This document shows, piece by piece, positions 44,453 through 52,324 of a stretch of DNA of 64,000 nt. The stretch comes from Bacteroidota bacterium (lineage in GTDB: Bacteria; Bacteroidota; Bacteroidia; Cytophagales; Cyclobacteriaceae): positions 124,001 through 188,000 of the forward strand of contig JAFDYT010000017.1 of assembly GCA_018266055.1 (NCBI GenBank), written 5' to 3'. A program made the position numbers and the translations under genes. The notes below the pieces were generated by a model, which saw nothing but the letters and a program-made list of their open reading frames with translations, did not search any database and was not told the origin of the DNA. Numbering within the stretch: position 1 is the first letter of the stretch; each line of letters starts with the position of its first letter.

Positions 44453-45463
44453 TTAATTTCCGAAACTGAGCTGCTGGATTTTGTTCAACTTATTGATCAA
44501 TCGTGCGGACTCTGCAAAATCCAGCGTCTGCTGCCCATCGCTGAAAGCCTCCTCAGGCTTCTGGTGAGTTTCGTAAATCACGCCATCGGCGCCGGCTACC
44601 GCAGCAGCAAGGGCCACAGGTTCCACAAACTCGCGAATGCCGATGCCATGCGATGGATCAGCAATGACGGGCAAATGCGTCTTCTCTTTCAGGATTGGAA
44701 TGGCATTGATGTCAAAGGTATTTCGGCTCGCCCTTTCGTACGTGCGGATGCCGCGCTCGCACAGCATCAGCTTTTCATTGCCAGCCGAAAACACATACTC
44801 GGCCGAATAAAGCAGCTCTTCAATAGTCCCAGAAATCCCGCGCTTGATCATCACGGGCTTATCTACTTTACCGAGTTCGTCGAGCAAATTAAAATTCTGC
44901 GTATTGCGAGCGCCAACCTGAAACACATCGACATAGTCAACCATTTCAGCAATCTGACTTACCTGCATCACCTCCGTGACGATCTTAATTCCAGATTGTT
45001 TCGCCAGCGAATACCAAAGCTTCAACCCCTCAATTCCTAATCCACGAAAAGCGTAAGGAGAGCTTCGCGGCTTGAACACACCTCCGCGCATGATCCTAAC
45101 ACCATTCTGTTTCAAATGATCAATCGTGTCCTGAATTTGTTTTTCATTTTCAATCGAACACGGGCCCGCCATAATCGCCAGGGAACCATCGCCAATACGA
45201 ACGCCATCACCCAAATCGATCACCGTCCGGTTTACTTTCCACTTGTTGGATACCAACTTATAATCATCTGATACTCGATGAATATCTTCAATACCCGGAA
45301 GGTTTCCGAGTGTCCTAATATCAAACTCTTTTTTTCCGATGGCCACGATATAATTTGCCACTTGCGTAGTTACACCGTTGGCTTTATAACCCAGTTTGGT
45401 AATTGCCGCAATCAGCTGATCCCTTTGATCGGCTGTGATGTGCTTAGAAAGTTGAATGATCAT
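44453..45463 (-). CDS. aroF: 3-deoxy-7-phosphoheptulonate (DAHP) synthase
   Basis: First step of the shikimate pathway (PEP plus erythrose-4-phosphate). The 336-aa protein is of the Thermotoga/Bacillus type: an N-terminal ferredoxin-like regulatory domain (about residues 1-70), then a TIM barrel with IMAGPCSIENEKQIQ, VFKPRSSPYAFRGLG, KPVMIKRGISGTIEELL and VIADPSHGIG metal/PEP-site motifs. The regulatory domain normally binds aromatic amino acids. It lies 15 bp after trpA on the same strand, so Trp-pathway flux and chorismate supply are controlled together. Confidence 0.94.
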   Translation of the reverse strand: MIIQLSKHITADQRDQLIAAITKLGYKANGVTTQVANYIVAIGKKEFDIRTLGNLPGIEDIHRVSDDYKLVSNKWKVNRTVIDLGDGVRIGDGSLAIMAGPCSIENEKQIQDTIDHLKQNGVRIMRGGVFKPRSSPYAFRGLGIEGLKLWYSLAKQSGIKIVTEVMQVSQIAEMVDYVDVFQVGARNTQNFNLLDELGKVDKPVMIKRGISGTIEELLYSAEYVFSAGNEKLMLCERGIRTYERASRNTFDINAIPILKEKTHLPVIADPSHGIGIREFVEPVALAAAVAGADGVIYETHQKPEEAFSDGQQTLDFAESARLINKLNKIQQLSFGN

Positions 45464-45478
45464 AAATTCGTTTTACAA

Positions 45479-46255
45479 TTAGCCTCTCAACGAGGCAATG
45501 AATTTCTTAATGTCACCTGACAAATCCTTTGAGTCGGCTAACAATCGTATAAACGCACTGCCGATGATTGCTCCCGAAGAATAACTGCAGGCTTGGGCAA
45601 ACGTTGATTGATTTGAAATACCAAAACCAATAAGGAATGGATTCTTCAACTTCAAATGTTTCAAGTATTTGAAATAATCGGCTTGCTCTTGCGAAAATTC
45701 ATTCTTTGCGCCAGTGGTACTAGATGACGACACCGCATAGATGAAGCTGTTGGTAGCTGTATCTATCTGTCGAATACGATTTTCGGAAGTAGTTGGTGAT
45801 ATCAAAAATACATTGGTCAATCCGTTTGTATCGAACGTAGTTTTGTATTCGGTTTCAAACTCATACAGCGGAAGATCAGGCAAGATTAGCCCATCCACTC
45901 CCGCTGCTGCGGCATCCTTACAAAATTTCTCTACTCCATATTGCAACACAGGATTAAGATAGCCCATCAATATGATTGGCAACTTTACCTGCTGGCGTAT
46001 TTCTTTAACTTGCTGTAGCAGTAATTTTACATTCATGCCATTGTCAAGCGCTACTTTGTTGCTTTGCTGAATCACCGGACCATCGGCAACAGGATCTGAG
46101 AAGGGAATTCCAATTTCGATGATATCAGCGCCTGCTTCTTCCAATGATTTTGCAATGCGAACCGTATCACCCAACGCTGGGAAACCAGCCGTGAAGTAAA
46201 CTGACAAAACATTCTGTGCCTTCGATTCGAAAAGCGCGTTAATTCTATTTTTCAT
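45479..46255 (-). CDS. trpA: Tryptophan synthase alpha chain
   Basis: Cleaves indole-3-glycerol phosphate to indole and G3P. The 258-aa TIM barrel shows the catalytic Glu and Asp in IIEIGIPFSDPVADGPVIQ and VDGLILPDLPLYE, plus the phosphate-binding LIGFGISNQ. It forms the alpha2beta2 complex with TrpB, encoded just upstream (36 bp). Confidence 0.97.
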   Translation of the reverse strand: MKNRINALFESKAQNVLSVYFTAGFPALGDTVRIAKSLEEAGADIIEIGIPFSDPVADGPVIQQSNKVALDNGMNVKLLLQQVKEIRQQVKLPIILMGYLNPVLQYGVEKFCKDAAAAGVDGLILPDLPLYEFETEYKTTFDTNGLTNVFLISPTTSENRIRQIDTATNSFIYAVSSSSTTGAKNEFSQEQADYFKYLKHLKLKNPFLIGFGISNQSTFAQACSYSSGAIIGSAFIRLLADSKDLSGDIKKFIASLRG

Positions 46256-46291
46256 TTTGATAATATCAGGTCTTGAACTTGAATAGCAGTG

Positions 46292-47473
46292 TTAATATTT
46301 TCCCCAGCGGATGTAAGTCTCCAAGTCTTTGTCGCCGCGCCCAGAAAGGTTGACTATAACCACATCATCCTCATCCAACGACAGCTTGCCCAATACTGCA
46401 ACAGCGTGCGCACTCTCAATCGCAGGAATGATTCCTTCCAGTCTGCTCAATTCAATTCCAGCATTCATCGCTTCGTCGTCTGTAGCGCTGATAAATTGTA
46501 CACGCCCCGTATCAAACAGATGCGAATGCAACGGCCCGATACCAGGATAATCCAACCCCGCTGAAATAGAATAAGGCTCAATCACTTGACCATCTTCTGT
46601 TTGCATAAGAAGGGATTTGCTTCCATGCAAAATTCCAACCTTTCCCAAGGCCGTCGTCGCCGCCGACTCGCCGGTATCAACGCCCTTTCCTGCAGCTTCT
46701 ACTCCGATTAACTTCACATGCTCATCGTCGAGAAAATGATAATAGGCTCCTGCGGCATTGCTACCTCCACCAACACAGGCGATTACATAATCTGGAAAAG
46801 GGTTTCCCTCTTGCGCAGTTAGTTGCGTTTTAATTTCATCGCTTATCACCGACTGAAACCGAGCCACCATATCCGGGTAAGGATGTGGTCCCACAACAGA
46901 ACCAATAATGTAATGCGTGTCAGTCGGGTTGTTGATCCAATGGCGCATCGCTTCGTTGGTCGCATCTTTTAACGTCATGTTGCCAGACGTTGCCGCTACA
47001 ACTTTCGTTCCCAAAATGCGCATGCGCTCTACGTTCGGACGCTGGCGTTCCATGTCCAATTGGCCCATGTACACAATACATTCCATGCCCATCAGCGCAC
47101 ATACCGTGGCAGTGGCTACACCATGCTGCCCTGCGCCTGTCTCCGCTATAATCTTTTTCTTGCCTAATTTTTTAGCCAGCAAAATTTGACCGATGGTGTT
47201 ATTGATTTTGTGCGCTCCGGTATGGCAAAGGTCCTCGCGCTTCAAATAAATTTTCGCTTTGTATTTCTCTGAGAGTCGCTCTGCAAGGAATAAAGGTGTT
47301 GGTCTTCCCACATAATTTTTTAGCAGATAGTCAAAGTCCTTTTTAAACTGCGGAGACTCAATGATAGATAAGTAGCTTATGCGCAATTCTTCTACGTTCG
47401 GGTGCAACATTTCAGGAATGAACGCTCCTCCAAATTTTCCATAGTACCCATGATCGTTGACTGTATATTTCAT
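46292..47473 (-). CDS. trpB: Tryptophan synthase beta chain
   Basis: PLP enzyme that joins indole and serine. The 393-aa protein has [20 protein letters not shown] (PLP Lys in HK), [13 protein letters not shown], the phosphate-binding [10 protein letters not shown] and [14 protein letters not shown]. Length and motifs are those of the TrpB1 form. Between trpF (19 bp upstream) and trpA. Confidence 0.98.
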
Positions 47474-47492
47474 ACTGATGAAGTTTTGAATT

Positions 47493-48122
47493 TTAAATAG
47501 TGGTATCCAGAATAGTTTTTATAGATCTTATTTTATCGATGTCTTTTAAGCCAGGAGAAATTTCCACGCCGCTGTTAACATCTAAAGCAAATAAGCCTGC
47601 GGTCTTTACTTGCAGTGCGGCCAGCACATTTTCTGGTGACAAGCCTCCGCTCAGGAAAAAAGGAACGTGATTTGAATAATTTGCCAGTATCGACCAATCA
47701 AAAGTTTTTCCAGATCCGCCATAGCCCTCACTTTTTGTATCGAAAAGAAAGCAATCCGAGCACGACTCAAATTTATCGACCGTGGAAAAATCAAAGTCAC
47801 GGTCGACTGAAAAAACCTTAATGATTCTTACACCACTCCTATTCAGTTGTTCACATTCCTTAACAGATTCGCCTCCATGAAGCTGTACAAAATCCAACCG
47901 ATGTTGCTCGACTTTCTTCAACACAACTTCTGTCGCTTCGTTCACAAAAACTCCTACCCTTTTGATTTGACTGGGGAAATTCGTGGGAATGACAAAGTCT
48001 TTCCCTACGTACCGTTTAGATTTCTCATAGAAAATAAAACCCATAAAATCCGGGCTCAACGCTGCTACGTCGTTGATATTTTGCGCATCGCGCATACCGC
48101 AGATTTTCAATCCAGGTTTCAT
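47493..48122 (-). CDS. trpF: Phosphoribosylanthranilate isomerase
   Basis: A 209-aa TIM barrel: [20 protein letters not shown] at the N-terminus (catalytic Cys), [25 protein letters not shown], and [10 protein letters not shown] and ALDVNSGVE at the phosphate site. It catalyses the Amadori rearrangement before TrpC. Overlaps trpC by 4 nt and is separate from it, not fused as in enterobacteria. Confidence 0.96.
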
Positions 48123-48913
48123 TTTCTCTTTTCCAATTGTGACATGAATTCTTTGGCTGCCGTTTCGGGCCGACTGTTTTTCATGAAGTTCTCGCCCATT
48201 AAAAATCCATCGAAGCCATGTTGTCTTAACTCGTGAATTGTCTCGACTTTACTGATACCACTTTCTGAAACTTTCACAATCTCCTTTGGCATCATCGCAG
48301 CAAGCTTCTTTGACACTTCGATGCTCACGTCAAAGCTTTTCAAATCGCGGTTATTCACTCCGATTAAGTCCACATCAGAGGATAAATGCGGCTGCAGCTC
48401 TTCGGCAGTATGAACTTCTAATAAAACCTCAAGACCAAACGAGTGAGCAAATGCCGACAGCTCTTTTACACGAGCAGGTTCAAGAATGGCAGCGATCAAC
48501 AGAATAGCATCAGCGCCAATTGATTTTGCTTCCGTGATCTGATAATCGTCGATGGTGAAATCCTTTCGCAGAATCGGGCAAAAATTGAATTTGCGTGCTA
48601 CCATCAAGTCGTCGCTGCTACCGCCGAAAAACTCTTTGTCGGTAAGTACCGACAGCGCGCTGGCACCAGCCTGCATGTAGCCGATGGACGTGCGCTCGAC
48701 AGACACATGTGGATTGATCACGCCTTTACTAGGCGATTTTCGTTTGATCTCAGCAATAATCCCTGACTTATCCTTACGCAATACATATTTTTTTAAGGAT
48801 ATCGTAGGCGACGAAAAGTAAATGCTTTGCTCCAGCAATTTGACCGGATACAAACTCTTTCGTTCCGCGACTTCCTTTTTCTTCTGCTCAACAATCTTAT
48901 CGAGGATATTCAT
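48119..48913 (-). CDS. trpC: Indole-3-glycerol phosphate synthase
   Basis: A 264-aa protein. Motifs: IIAEIKRKSPSKGVIN (catalytic Lys), VLTDKEFFGGSSDDL, ILRKDFTIDDYQI, LLEVHTAEEL, IGVNNRDLKSF and VSESGIS. Ring-closing decarboxylation of CdRP. Its 3' end overlaps trpF, so the two are translationally coupled. Confidence 0.97.
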   Translation of the reverse strand: MNILDKIVEQKKKEVAERKSLYPVKLLEQSIYFSSPTISLKKYVLRKDKSGIIAEIKRKSPSKGVINPHVSVERTSIGYMQAGASALSVLTDKEFFGGSSDDLMVARKFNFCPILRKDFTIDDYQITEAKSIGADAILLIAAILEPARVKELSAFAHSFGLEVLLEVHTAEELQPHLSSDVDLIGVNNRDLKSFDVSIEVSKKLAAMMPKEIVKVSESGISKVETIHELRQHGFDGFLMGENFMKNSRPETAAKEFMSQLEKRK

Positions 48914-48926
48914 ATTTCACAGTTAA

Positions 48927-49913
48927 CTATTGATTAAGTAACTTTTTAAAGGCACTCAGCGCTTTTCCAGAAAGCAGCGCTTCTTTGGCTTTGAGCAAAC
49001 TGTTCTGCAAACCATCCTTTTGATTGCCTGCAAAGAGAGCCATTCCTGCGTTGGCAATCACAACCGCGTTTTGTTCTTCAGTCCCTTTGCCTTCAAGCAC
49101 CGTCATGAAAATTTTTCCTGACTGCTCCATGCTGTCACCTCCGGCTAAATCAATGGCTGACAATCGCGGCAACTTCAAATCCTCAGGCTCAAGGAGCGCC
49201 TCACCTTCATTGTAAAAATACTTGAATCCGCTGGTGAGCGAAATCTCATCATAACCGTCAGTAGAATGAAGAATTACAAACTGCTTGTCAGTTTGCTGAT
49301 AGAGATACCCGTATTGGCGCGCAAGTTCCAAACTAAAAACGCCCACCAACTGTCGCGTAGGAAATGCCGGATTCACCATCGGTCCAAGCATGTTAAAGAA
49401 AGTCTTCACTCCGAGTTCTTTTCGGATCGGTGCCACATTTTTCATAGCCGGATGAAACAACGGCGCATGCATAAAGCAAATATTGGCTCGATCAATACTG
49501 CGCTTCAGTTCGTCTTTGTCGTTGGTGAATTTATAACCAAAATGTTCCAGTACATTGGATGAACCTGACAGCGAAGACACACCATAATTGCCATGCTTCG
49601 CCACCGGCTGGCCTGCCGCTGCCACCACAAAAGACGACAGCGTGGAGATGTTAAAAGTGTTTTTTGCATCACCGCCAGTGCCGCACAAATCCATGACTGG
49701 TTCATCAAACTTCACAGGAATGCAAAGCTCAAGCATGCCATCGCGGAAGCCGGCAAGTTCATCAACCGTAATGCCACGCATCATGTACACCGTCATGAAC
49801 GCCGACGCCTGACTGGGGTTAAACTTACCTGATGCCAGATTGATGAGCACCTGACGCGCATTCTCCTTTGACAGCGACTGATGATTGATTAATTCTGTTA
49901 ATATCTGTTTCAT
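48927..49913 (-). CDS. trpD: Anthranilate phosphoribosyltransferase
   Basis: A 328-aa protein with the PRPP/anthranilate-site signature DLCGTGGDAKNTFNIST, then AKHGNYGVSSLSGSSNVLEH and FFNMLGPMVNPA. Adds phosphoribose to anthranilate. Separate from trpG, unlike the enterobacterial fusion. Confidence 0.97.
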   Translation of the reverse strand: MKQILTELINHQSLSKENARQVLINLASGKFNPSQASAFMTVYMMRGITVDELAGFRDGMLELCIPVKFDEPVMDLCGTGGDAKNTFNISTLSSFVVAAAGQPVAKHGNYGVSSLSGSSNVLEHFGYKFTNDKDELKRSIDRANICFMHAPLFHPAMKNVAPIRKELGVKTFFNMLGPMVNPAFPTRQLVGVFSLELARQYGYLYQQTDKQFVILHSTDGYDEISLTSGFKYFYNEGEALLEPEDLKLPRLSAIDLAGGDSMEQSGKIFMTVLEGKGTEEQNAVVIANAGMALFAGNQKDGLQNSLLKAKEALLSGKALSAFKKLLNQ

Positions 49914-49924
49914 TGTTCGGCGGC

Positions 49925-50497
49925 TTAATTCTTTAACCAGTTTGCAATCATCGTCGGGCCTTCGGGTGTCATCACCGACTCAGGATGAAACTGAAGGCCT
50001 CTCACGTCGTACTTCACGTGACGAATGCCCATGACCAATCCTTCGTCGTTTGTAGCAGTTACTTTTAATTCATGAGTAATACTGTCCGCCTTTACTGCCC
50101 ACGAGTGATAATGCGTGCTTTGAAAAGTATCGGAGACATTTTTAAAGAGAGGCTCAGCCTTGTCCTTCACGTGCGTCATTGAGGTGACGCCATGAAGCAC
50201 CTTGGGAATATTATACAACGTCGCGCCATACACTTCCGCGATCCCCTGATGGCCGAGGCAAATACCAAGAATACTTTTGGTCGGGCCATAGTTGAGAATC
50301 ACTTGCTTCATGATGCCTGCTTCATCAGGCACGCCAGGCCCCGGCGACAGCAGAATCTTGTCATATCGGCCTACTTCTTCCACTGAGATCTTATCGTTGC
50401 GAATCACATCCGGATGATGCCCCAGTGATCGGATGATATGAACAAGGTTGTATGTGAATGAATCGTAATTATCCAGAACCAGAATTTTTATCGCCAT
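49925..50497 (-). CDS. trpG: Anthranilate synthase glutamine amidotransferase component
   Basis: A 190-aa class-I glutaminase from the ATG at 50497 (the frame extends to a TTG at 50503). Nucleophile Cys in ILGICLGHQGIAEVYG, oxyanion loop LLSPGPGVPDEAG, catalytic His/Glu in GLQFHPESVMTPEG. It supplies ammonia to TrpE. 51 bp after trpE. Confidence 0.97.
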   Translation of the reverse strand: MAIKILVLDNYDSFTYNLVHIIRSLGHHPDVIRNDKISVEEVGRYDKILLSPGPGVPDEAGIMKQVILNYGPTKSILGICLGHQGIAEVYGATLYNIPKVLHGVTSMTHVKDKAEPLFKNVSDTFQSTHYHSWAVKADSITHELKVTATNDEGLVMGIRHVKYDVRGLQFHPESVMTPEGPTMIANWLKN

Positions 50498-50548
50498 ATT
50501 CAATTTTTCAGTTTTAAAACATCAATCCAATAATCTAATTTCAATCCA

Positions 50549-51940
50549 TTAAATCGTCTCCGCCAAAAGGATTGCTTTGCGTAAAGCTTCCAACTTGTTG
50601 TTAACTTCCTGCAATTCACTTTTGTTATCTGACTTTGAAACAACTCCAGCTCCCGCCTGATAAATCAACTGGTTTCCTTTGCTCAGGAAAGTCCGAATGG
50701 TAATCGCTTTGTTCAGCGAACCATCGAAGCTAATCAGTCCGATTGCACCGCCGTAAAAACTGCGATTAATATTCTCATACCGGTCGATGAGGTTCATGGC
50801 CATAACCTTAGGCGCTCCTGATAACGTTCCTGCGGGAAAAGTATCGGCAAACAATTGCACCACGGATGATCCTTCGGTAAGCTTGCCCGACACTTTTGAC
50901 ACGAGGTGAATGACATGCGAATAGTATTGCACTTCCTTGAACACTTCCACCTTCACATGGTCTGCGTTGCGGCTCATGTCATTGCGCGCCAAGTCCACCA
51001 GCATCACGTGCTCCGCGTTTTCTTTCTCATCGGCGGAAAGTTTCGCCGCCAGTGCTGCGTCTTCCTGATCGTTCCCGCTGCGGCGGAATGTGCCCGCAAT
51101 CGGGTAAATGTACGCGTGCGAGTTTTTCACCTGAAGCTGCGCTTCGGGAGAGGAACCGAAAATCTTGTAGTTGCCATAATCAAAATAAAAAAGATACGGC
51201 GATGGGTTGATCGAGCGGAGCGCCCGGTACACGTTAAACTCATCGCCTTGAAATGAATTCGTAAAGCGGCGTGACAACACAATCTGAAACACATCGCCGC
51301 GATAGCAATGTTGCTTCCCTTTCTCAATAAGTTCGAGAAACTCTGCATCAGTATAGTTGGTCGTTTCCTTACCGGTGACATTAAACTTAAACGTAGAAAA
51401 ACGATTGCTAAAGACAATCTGCTCAATGCGGCTCAGGGTGCTTTCGCTATTGCCGTAAGTAAATTCATGAAGGCGTAGTTCGTTATGAAAATGATCGACG
51501 GCGATGACGTAGCGATATAGTTTGTAAACCATGTCCGGAATAAGCGAGTCCGAAGACTTGAATTCTACATCCTCAAAGTAGCGCGCCGAATCATAGGACG
51601 TGTAGCCAAACAACCCCATGGACGTAAAGCGACTGTCGGCGTCACCGAGATCAAAGGATTTTCTAAAATCATCCAATAAATGCGGAAGGTTTTTACCAAC
51701 GACTTCTACAGTTTGTACCGAACCATCCGGGAATCTGATTACAGCAAAACCCTTTTGCACTACAAACGAAGCAATGGGGTCGCAGCAAATGAATGACAAG
51801 CTGTTCTCATTGCCATGATAATCGGAGCTTTCAAGAAGAATACTTCCGGCAAAAACATCGCGCAGCTTCAGGTAAATGTTCACCGGCGTGATCGTGTCGG
51901 CCAGCAACTTCTTGTAATGTGTTCTTAAACTGTACTTCAT
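50549..51940 (-). CDS. trpE: Anthranilate synthase component I
   Basis: Converts chorismate to anthranilate with TrpG. The 463-aa protein has the Trp feedback-site LLESSDYHGNENSLSF near the N-terminus and the chorismate-binding region IAGTFRRSG, DLARNDMSRNA, FPAGTLSGAPKVMAMNLIDR and YGGAIGLISFDG. First structural gene of the trp operon; it follows a leader peptide with three Trp codons and a terminator hairpin ending 23 bp before its ATG. Confidence 0.98.
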   Translation of the reverse strand: MKYSLRTHYKKLLADTITPVNIYLKLRDVFAGSILLESSDYHGNENSLSFICCDPIASFVVQKGFAVIRFPDGSVQTVEVVGKNLPHLLDDFRKSFDLGDADSRFTSMGLFGYTSYDSARYFEDVEFKSSDSLIPDMVYKLYRYVIAVDHFHNELRLHEFTYGNSESTLSRIEQIVFSNRFSTFKFNVTGKETTNYTDAEFLELIEKGKQHCYRGDVFQIVLSRRFTNSFQGDEFNVYRALRSINPSPYLFYFDYGNYKIFGSSPEAQLQVKNSHAYIYPIAGTFRRSGNDQEDAALAAKLSADEKENAEHVMLVDLARNDMSRNADHVKVEVFKEVQYYSHVIHLVSKVSGKLTEGSSVVQLFADTFPAGTLSGAPKVMAMNLIDRYENINRSFYGGAIGLISFDGSLNKAITIRTFLSKGNQLIYQAGAGVVSKSDNKSELQEVNNKLEALRKAILLAETI

Positions 51941-51962
51941 GGTGTTCTGATTTTTGTTAAAT

Positions 51963-51994
51963 AAAAAAGCCCGCTCCTTTGATCGGGGCGGGCT
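51963..51994 (-). terminator. trp attenuator terminator hairpin (segments 3:4)
   Basis: On the minus strand AGCCCGCCCC and GGAGCGGGCT form a 10-bp GC-rich stem (one G-T pair) around GATCAAA, followed by six T residues (51963-51968). It stands between the leader peptide and trpE, so it must be bypassed for trp expression. Its 5' arm (51980-51989) is complementary to leader segment 2 at 52034-52043. Confidence 0.85.
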
Positions 51995-52015
51995 CTTTAG
52001 AAAATTATTTAGTTT

Positions 52016-52090
52016 TCAATAAAGCACAGCAAAGCACCGATCACTACCTGATCTGTGCCACCACCATGCATTGATTGAAATGTGATTCAT
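52016..52090 (-). CDS. trpL: trp operon leader peptide with Trp-Trp-Trp
   Basis: A 24-codon reading frame, ATG at 52090-52088 and TGA at 52018-52016. Codons 9-11 are three consecutive TGG Trp codons (52058-52066) within INAWWWHRSG. Just after them the RNA can form a pause hairpin (1:2, 52049-52058 with 52034-52043); segment 2 can instead pair with the terminator 5' arm (2:3). Ribosome stalling at uncharged tRNA-Trp would cover segment 1, favour 2:3 and let transcription enter trpE. The start codon is separated by one base from the thx stop codon. Confidence 0.85.
   Translation of the reverse strand: MNHISINAWWWHRSGSDRCFAVLY
52034..52058 (-). promoter_or_regulatory. trp attenuator pause/antiterminator segments 1 and 2
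   Basis: Segment 1 (GCACAGATCA, 52058-52049) pairs with segment 2 (TGATCGGTGC, 52043-52034) with a GGTAG loop. Segment 2 also matches the complement of terminator segment 3 (GCCCCGATCA, 51989-51980) at nine of ten positions. These mutually exclusive pairings are the expected architecture of a transcription attenuator. Confidence 0.8.
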
Positions 52091-52294: not shown

Positions 52295-52324
52295 CAATAA
52301 TAAGGATGATTTGCGAAATACAAA
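52295..52324 (-). promoter_or_regulatory. Bacteroidota promoter for thx-trp
   Basis: On the minus strand, TTTG (52324-52321) and TATTATTG (52302-52295, one mismatch to TAnnTTTG) are 18 bp apart, close to the usual 19. The predicted start, around 52288, leaves about 17 nt before the thx ATG. No second promoter of this quality was seen inside thx. Confidence 0.5.

Follow-up and report, generated by a model that had tools for sequence, protein, structure and literature searches.

The tryptophan locus and its leader

The window, meaning the whole 64,000-nucleotide stretch analysed here from a Bacteroidota genome of 4.79 Mb, carries tryptophan biosynthesis genes on its minus strand (Table 1). Along that strand the locus begins with a promoter-like site and a 59-aa open reading frame (ORF) for ribosomal protein THX, followed after one base by a leader ORF, a terminator, trpE, and then trpG. 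From gene order and spacing, we infer that trpEGDCFBA and a DAHP synthase gene form a single operon. The best NCBIfam match of trpE was TIGR00564 at 404 bits, below the model cut-off of 517.7. Its best named relatives, at 69-71% identity, came from MAGs of Cyclobacteriaceae and Flammeovirgaceae, which suggests a Cyclobacteriaceae-like member of the Cytophagales as the source. The start of trpG is uncertain, with TTG 50503 and ATG 50497 as the two candidates.

Table 1. Features of the trp leader region and the genes around it (positions in the window).
Feature	Positions	Strand	Sequence and evidence
Predicted sigma-ABfr-type promoter	52295..52324	(-)	TTTG 52324-52321, 18 nt, TATTATTG 52302-52295 (one base off TAnnTTTG)
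30S ribosomal protein THX gene, 59 aa	52092..52271	(-)	TIGR04560, 35 bits (above cut-off of 26); profile search of genomes
trp leader peptide ORF	52016..52090	(-)	MNHISINAWWWHRSGSDRCFAVLY; 24 codons plus TGA at 52018-52016; sequence, kept in relatives
Trp sensor, TGG TGG TGG	52066-52058	(-)	Sequence; WWW in 95/122 distinct trpE upstream regions
Segment 1	52049..52058	(-)	GCACAGATCA; helix reaches 52069 in MFE fold; 1:2 covaries
Segment 2	52034..52043	(-)	TGATCGGTGC; partner of segment 1 or segment 3
Segment 3	51980..51989	(-)	GCCCCGATCA; 5' side of terminator, alternative partner of segment 2
Intrinsic terminator 3:4	51963..51998	(-)	Stem 51998-51964, U6 51968-51963; -20.4 kcal/mol; covaries
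trpE, first enzyme gene behind the putative attenuator	50549..51940	(-)	Pfam PF00425 and PF04715
Remaining genes of the inferred operon: trpG, trpD, trpC, trpF, trpB, trpA, DAHP synthase	44453..50503	(-)	ORFs and Pfam

A sequence-only reading of this DNA had proposed a 24-codon leader with three TGG codons, and its coordinates were confirmed on the sequence. Across the two strands of the window, 626 ORFs of 8-45 codons start with ATG, and only the leader contains WWW. Among the 13 ORFs listed as bearing homopolymers, the leader alone had a strong terminator within 110 nt past its stop (-18.0 kcal/mol; the next best reached -6.1 kcal/mol).

Conservation of the leader in relatives

We examined 36 genomes of the same genus, including the window's own, of which four had no true trpE match and two had trpE at a contig edge, leaving 30 that were readable. 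All 30 carried a leader, with WWW in 28 and WW in two (L007 and L027). Trp-codon leaders in close relatives were where the sequence-only reading could be checked, and such leaders proved widespread in Bacteroidota: among 122 distinct trpE upstream regions of at least 200 bases, besides those with WWW (Table 1), 16 had WW, one had WxW, and 10 had none, though a few of the WW cases (e.g. L042 and L133) are probably not true leaders. The 80 named loci in this comparison were the best 80 of 588 matches to the window trpE, so the sample leans towards trpE relatives of the window. With these regions read on the other strand, WWW was found in 0/122, and a chance origin of the WWW frame was rejected on this strand difference together with its uniqueness among short ORFs; conservation in relatives excludes coincidence. 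The AWWWH core of the peptide was well kept within the clade, and outside the core both length and sequence varied among loci, suggesting that it is the RNA rather than the peptide that is kept.

Several other arrangements were detected at trp loci. Within the last 420 bases before trpE, 12 loci had two Trp-rich leader ORFs in series (L040, L043, L061, L079, L080, L082, L083, L086, L087, L095, L096, and L098), with a U-tailed terminator after each leader in 11 of them; in L080, no terminator was detected behind the first leader. From their sequences these look like tandem Trp attenuators, and they occur in Fulvivirga, Rufibacter, Prolixibacteraceae, and others. The attenuator terminator and trpE of Xanthocytophaga flavus are separated by a gene for tRNA-Trp with anticodon CCA (L071:2894-2967, plus strand), the sole such case in 120 loci scanned. 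This tRNA would be expressed only when transcription passes the terminator; the genome encodes another tRNA-Trp elsewhere, 74% alike. Spirosoma panaciterrae (L072:2693-2769) and Larkinella terrae (L084:202-276) each have a tRNA-Pro gene (CGG) ahead of the trp leader. Between attenuator and trpE, locus L008 is about 150 bases longer than its near relative L007, perhaps through an insertion; the terminator ends at -188 in L008 and at -34 in L007.

Pairing, covariation, and three segment types

The 1:2 and 2:3 pairings were found where the sequence-only reading had placed them, each with 9/10 positions complementary: segment 1 (52058-52049) against segment 2 (52043-52034), and segment 2 against segment 3 (51989-51980). 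The two pairings exclude each other in the window, as both use 52043-52034. That reading located both the 1:2 helix and the 3:4 terminator with its T6 correctly but underestimated their extent. The MFE fold extends the 1:2 helix over the Trp codons (52069-52061 paired with 52032-52024) and gives a terminator stem that likewise exceeds the earlier proposal (Table 1). An intrinsic terminator with covarying pairs thus lies between the leader and the first enzyme gene; a simple terminator scan of the window did not have it among its output.

The window fold reached -47.9 kcal/mol (z -5.1), and 0/200 shuffles were as low. When the region from the WWW codons to the terminator was tested alone, its stability was unexceptional in the window (p 0.175) and reached p<=0.05 in 15/36 distinct loci of the THX branch described below. 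Since 1:2 is not unusually stable by this measure, the case for it rests on covariation. The 2:3 pairing in the window had -16.9 kcal/mol (p 0.005), and against shuffled upstream segments it reached p<=0.05 in 29/36 distinct THX-branch loci and in 38/67 leaders outside the branch, duplicates omitted. In the unmasked window RNA, segment 2 had a mean pairing probability of 0.60 with upstream bases and 0.11 with segment 3.

We sorted 40 loci by eye into three types for the pairing tests: type A, to which the window belongs (n=19; 2:3 core GAUCGG:CCGAUC), type B (n=17; GUGARCAGC:GCUGUUCAC), and type C (n=4). In type B the 1:2 and 2:3 helices overlap in only three columns. Covariation was counted as alignment cells changed on both sides of a pair and compared with 500 shuffles. 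Within type A, 1:2 was 89.5% paired with 11 both-side cells, a number as high in 0/500 shuffles, though all 11 fell on one pair, a pair count equalled by 451/500. The 3:4 stem of the same type was 86.3% paired, with 12 both-side cells over four pairs (0/500 shuffles by cells, 13/500 by pairs). Type B had 13 both-side cells over five pairs in 1:2 (0/500 by cells, 1/500 by pairs) and seven over four pairs in 3:4 (0/500 and 0/500).

Covariation of 2:3 was sought within types and not found: type A had two cells, equalled by 231/500 shuffles, and the 17 rows of type B had none, so in both the helix was conserved and not covarying. Segments 2 and 3 nevertheless remained matched while their sequence changed across the three types. 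Segment 2 paired with its own terminator arm at a mean of -15.4 kcal/mol over the 40 loci versus -12.7 (sd 0.45) with arms permuted, and 0/2000 permutations were as low (permutation and shuffles alike ignore descent). The covariation that the sequence-only reading had looked to in segments 1-4 was thus present in 1:2 and 3:4, and for 2:3 it was replaced by matching between types.

A ribosomal-protein gene before the leader

The more unusual part of this locus is its THX setting, which was absent from the sequence-only reading. The THX stop codon, TAA, ends one nucleotide before the leader ATG. Within the genus, THX lay directly before the leader in 29/30 readable genomes: 27 by direct reading, G032 (L012), where THX is interrupted by N with its tail visible, and G024 (L016), where its reading frame is broken. 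In a search of 22 order-level genomes, THX was found in 10, three of them without a strong trpE match, and adjoined trpE in none. The arrangement was confined to one trpE clade among the loci seen, with 35 THX rows and L022 on a single fully supported trpE branch. Mapped onto a tree built from 102 trpE proteins, it required two changes versus a mean of 29 with shuffled labels (L012 and L016 were labelled by hand). As this tree was built by a quick method and midpoint-rooted, the simplest history, with one gain and one loss, is not proven.

The leader ATG fell -4 to +6 nt from the THX stop in 35/37 distinct THX loci (all except L024 and L121), and the two overlapped in seven, although the overlap in L015 hinges on an odd THX end. 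The Bacteroidota promoter consensus is given as TTTG / TAnnTTTG (PMC7366714, PMC6847099), from which the sites before THX mostly differed by one base; in Flavobacterium johnsoniae the -33 box is described as much less evident (PMC6847099). A full -33/-7 promoter was detected within 85 nt before THX in 34/37 loci (all except L038, L122, and L123), and the looser -7 box TAnnnTTG in 37/37; with duplicates included, the promoter was present in 36/39, where mononucleotide shuffles gave an expectation of 0.18. Inside the THX ORF of the same 37 loci we found neither a full promoter nor a strict TAnnTTTG. A sigma-70 promoter scan of the window was uninformative because that promoter type differs from the phylum's.

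In L022 (G019), THX is absent before the leader, a like promoter stands 81 nt before the leader, and THX is at the end of another contig. The spacing of THX and leader, the placement of the promoter, and L022 all suggest that THX and leader share one transcript and are translationally coupled. Transcription therefore probably starts before the THX gene, which would make the THX mRNA itself the attenuated transcript. As we picture it, the attenuator would form the 3' end of an abundant short THX mRNA, and ribosomes finishing THX would re-start at the leader ATG one nucleotide on. The phylum's mRNAs are described in PMC6847099 as being without Shine-Dalgarno sites.

L022 (G019) and L153, in which THX is gone from between promoter and leader and ends another contig, provide a natural THX-less version of the locus. 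A further genome of the genus, G014 (L147; 84% complete), has THX without a true trpE match, and no TGGTGG was seen in the 220 bases after its THX gene.

Proposed mechanism and alternatives

We conclude with high confidence that the element is a ribosome-mediated transcription attenuator of the trp operon, a reading first made from the window alone and now supported by leader conservation, covariation of 1:2 and 3:4, matching of 2:3 between types, and masked folds. With ample Trp-tRNA, the ribosome would clear the three Trp codons, 1:2 would form behind it, and the 3:4 terminator would end transcription near 51963. When Trp-tRNA is scarce, the ribosome would stall at WWW and cover segment 1, so that segment 2 could capture the emerging segment 3, block the terminator, and allow transcription of trpEGDCFBA and the DAHP synthase gene.

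A ribosome stalled on W1, W2, or W3 was simulated by masking 13, 16, or 19 nt counted from the start of the Trp run, following E. coli footprint sizes. With segment 1 masked and the RNA ending before segment 4, 2:3 folded in 40/40 loci, and in the full-length free RNA 3:4 folded in 40/40. By a crude count, at least five 2:3 pairs were already present in the unmasked RNA before segment 4 in 27/40 loci; kinetics must therefore matter, as equilibrium folding alone leaves some loci short of a clean off state. The position of the leader stop suggests that the terminated state is made in two ways across loci. Counting from the first Trp codon, all 17 type B loci have the stop at nt 31, within segment 2, where a terminating ribosome would mask that segment. 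In 16/19 type A and 4/4 type C loci it is at nt 46 or 49, past the segment 2 core, where 1:2 would have to make the off state; the window's stop is of this second sort.

Because the hairpin sits just downstream of THX, and by eye no other terminator lies between THX and trpE, it could in principle be a plain THX terminator beside a coincidental WWW frame. We give this almost no credence, given that many of the upstream regions with WWW lack THX, that both 1:2 and 2:3 are kept, and that no other short ORF in the window has WWW. T-boxes, TRAP-like proteins, and repressors control Trp genes in other phyla, and one of these using the same terminator would make the peptide secondary. We found nothing in favour of such a route, and it appears highly improbable here: no Rfam family reached its cut-off in the window, the three best weak leader matches were the trpB motif, Trp_leader, and Bacteroid-trp, with T-box not among the 13 matches listed, and what is conserved is the Trp codons and their frame. 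By analogy with peTrpL of Sinorhizobium meliloti, reported to act in trans (PMC7298713), the leader peptide or the short terminated RNA might also have such a role. The well-kept AWWWH core fits this idea, but the variable remainder of the peptide suggests selection on the RNA, and we regard a trans role as very unlikely.

The alternative that bears most directly on THX is a genuine attenuator transcribed from a promoter of its own, with THX a mere neighbour neither co-transcribed nor translationally coupled. Outside the clade, a strict two-box rule placed a promoter directly before the leader in 20/72 loci (a set that includes the positive L022 and the THX-damaged L012 and L016). Loose -7 matches also occurred inside THX in 6/37 loci where 2.8 were expected, and a promoter without a -33 box could be missed there. 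Against this alternative stand the full promoters before THX and their absence within it, the tight spacing and occasional overlap of THX stop and leader ATG, and the like promoter before the leader of the THX-less L022. We consider an independent promoter unlikely and lean towards the trp operon of this Cytophagales clade being the read-through tail of a constant THX transcript, in which re-initiation would load the leader and the attenuator would gate trpEGDCFBA, tying Trp synthesis to ribosome production as well as to Trp-tRNA.

If the THX link is true, this would be a natural attenuator behind a real ribosomal-protein gene. Leader translation would then depend on re-initiation, and coupling of transcription and translation would become directly testable in a phylum without Shine-Dalgarno sites, with the THX-less relative L022 as a ready natural comparison. 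The THX setting appears to be the new part, as Trp attenuators in the phylum are already known; a linkage of THX to trp was not found in the open-licence literature searched under limited wordings.

Comparison with known Trp leaders

A Trp leader of Bacteroidetes, RF01692 Bacteroid-trp, is listed in Table 1 of Weinberg et al. 2010 (PMC2864571) and has been noted before the trp operon of F. psychrophilum (PMC6414381), and Lopatovskaya et al. 2010 (cited in PMC4833913) may contain an earlier prediction of trp attenuation in Bacteroidetes. An Rfam scan of the window returned no family at its cut-off, and plain membership was rejected at the curated thresholds (RF01692, 23.7 versus 49 bits; RF00513, 25.1 versus 41 bits). 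In the 36 same-genus genomes, RF01692 had six matches at E<=1, all under its cut-off and five of them directly before trpE; a search with stricter filters gave 0/36 at the cut-off. At the gathering cut-off it detected 5/31 distinct trpE loci scanned and 1/58 relatives. The minus-strand interval 51957-52059 of the window also matched RF04312, the 'trpB ncRNA motif', weakly at 25.6 bits (cut-off 59); RF04312 is possibly another description of trp leaders.

We built an independent model, R1, from 17 type B loci of the clade. In the window it gave a single match at E<=1 (41.9 bits, E 6.8e-8), and it recovered all five Rfam-positive loci seen (L050, L089, L094, L109, and L129; E 1.2e-5 to 5.4e-8). 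Among type A and C loci it matched 22/22 at E<=0.1, and in 21 of these E was no higher than 0.003. In outside loci, which were chosen for having a leader, it matched 45/49 in the sense direction at E<=0.01 (43/47 allowing for two doubled genomes) and also gave four antisense matches at the same level; as R1 contains the TGG run, convergence on WWW adds some score. Since one model recognizes both the window and the RF01692-positive loci, we read the window element as belonging to a Trp-leader family that spans the phylum and is covered in part by RF01692. The element is of a kind already known in the phylum and, by the curated cut-off, not an RF01692 member. A Bacteroidetes leader family that has been little described thereby gains many genomes out of the Rfam model's reach, with one attenuation logic served by three antiterminator sequences.

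The window leader resembles the structured leaders before amino-acid operons in Flavobacterium psychrophilum, of the same phylum, where transcriptome data gave strong clues for leader-peptide attenuation (PMC9723704); the accessible passages of that account mention no THX linkage and give no trp leader detail, unlike the window. The sequence-only reading had called the design independent of the enterobacterial sequence, which is consistent with the sub-threshold RF00513 score, but the element is no one-off, as it belongs with the Trp leaders of its phylum. In E. coli, the trp leader stop lies between segments 1 and 2. With the enterobacterial Trp_leader (RF00513), the window shares the Trp codons and the 1:2 / 2:3 / 3:4 logic, and it differs in having its leader stop behind segment 2 and a ribosomal-protein gene in front. 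With Bacteroid-trp (RF01692) it shares being a Trp leader RNA in Bacteroidetes, and it is set apart by the THX gene in front and by the other 2:3 sequence of its type.
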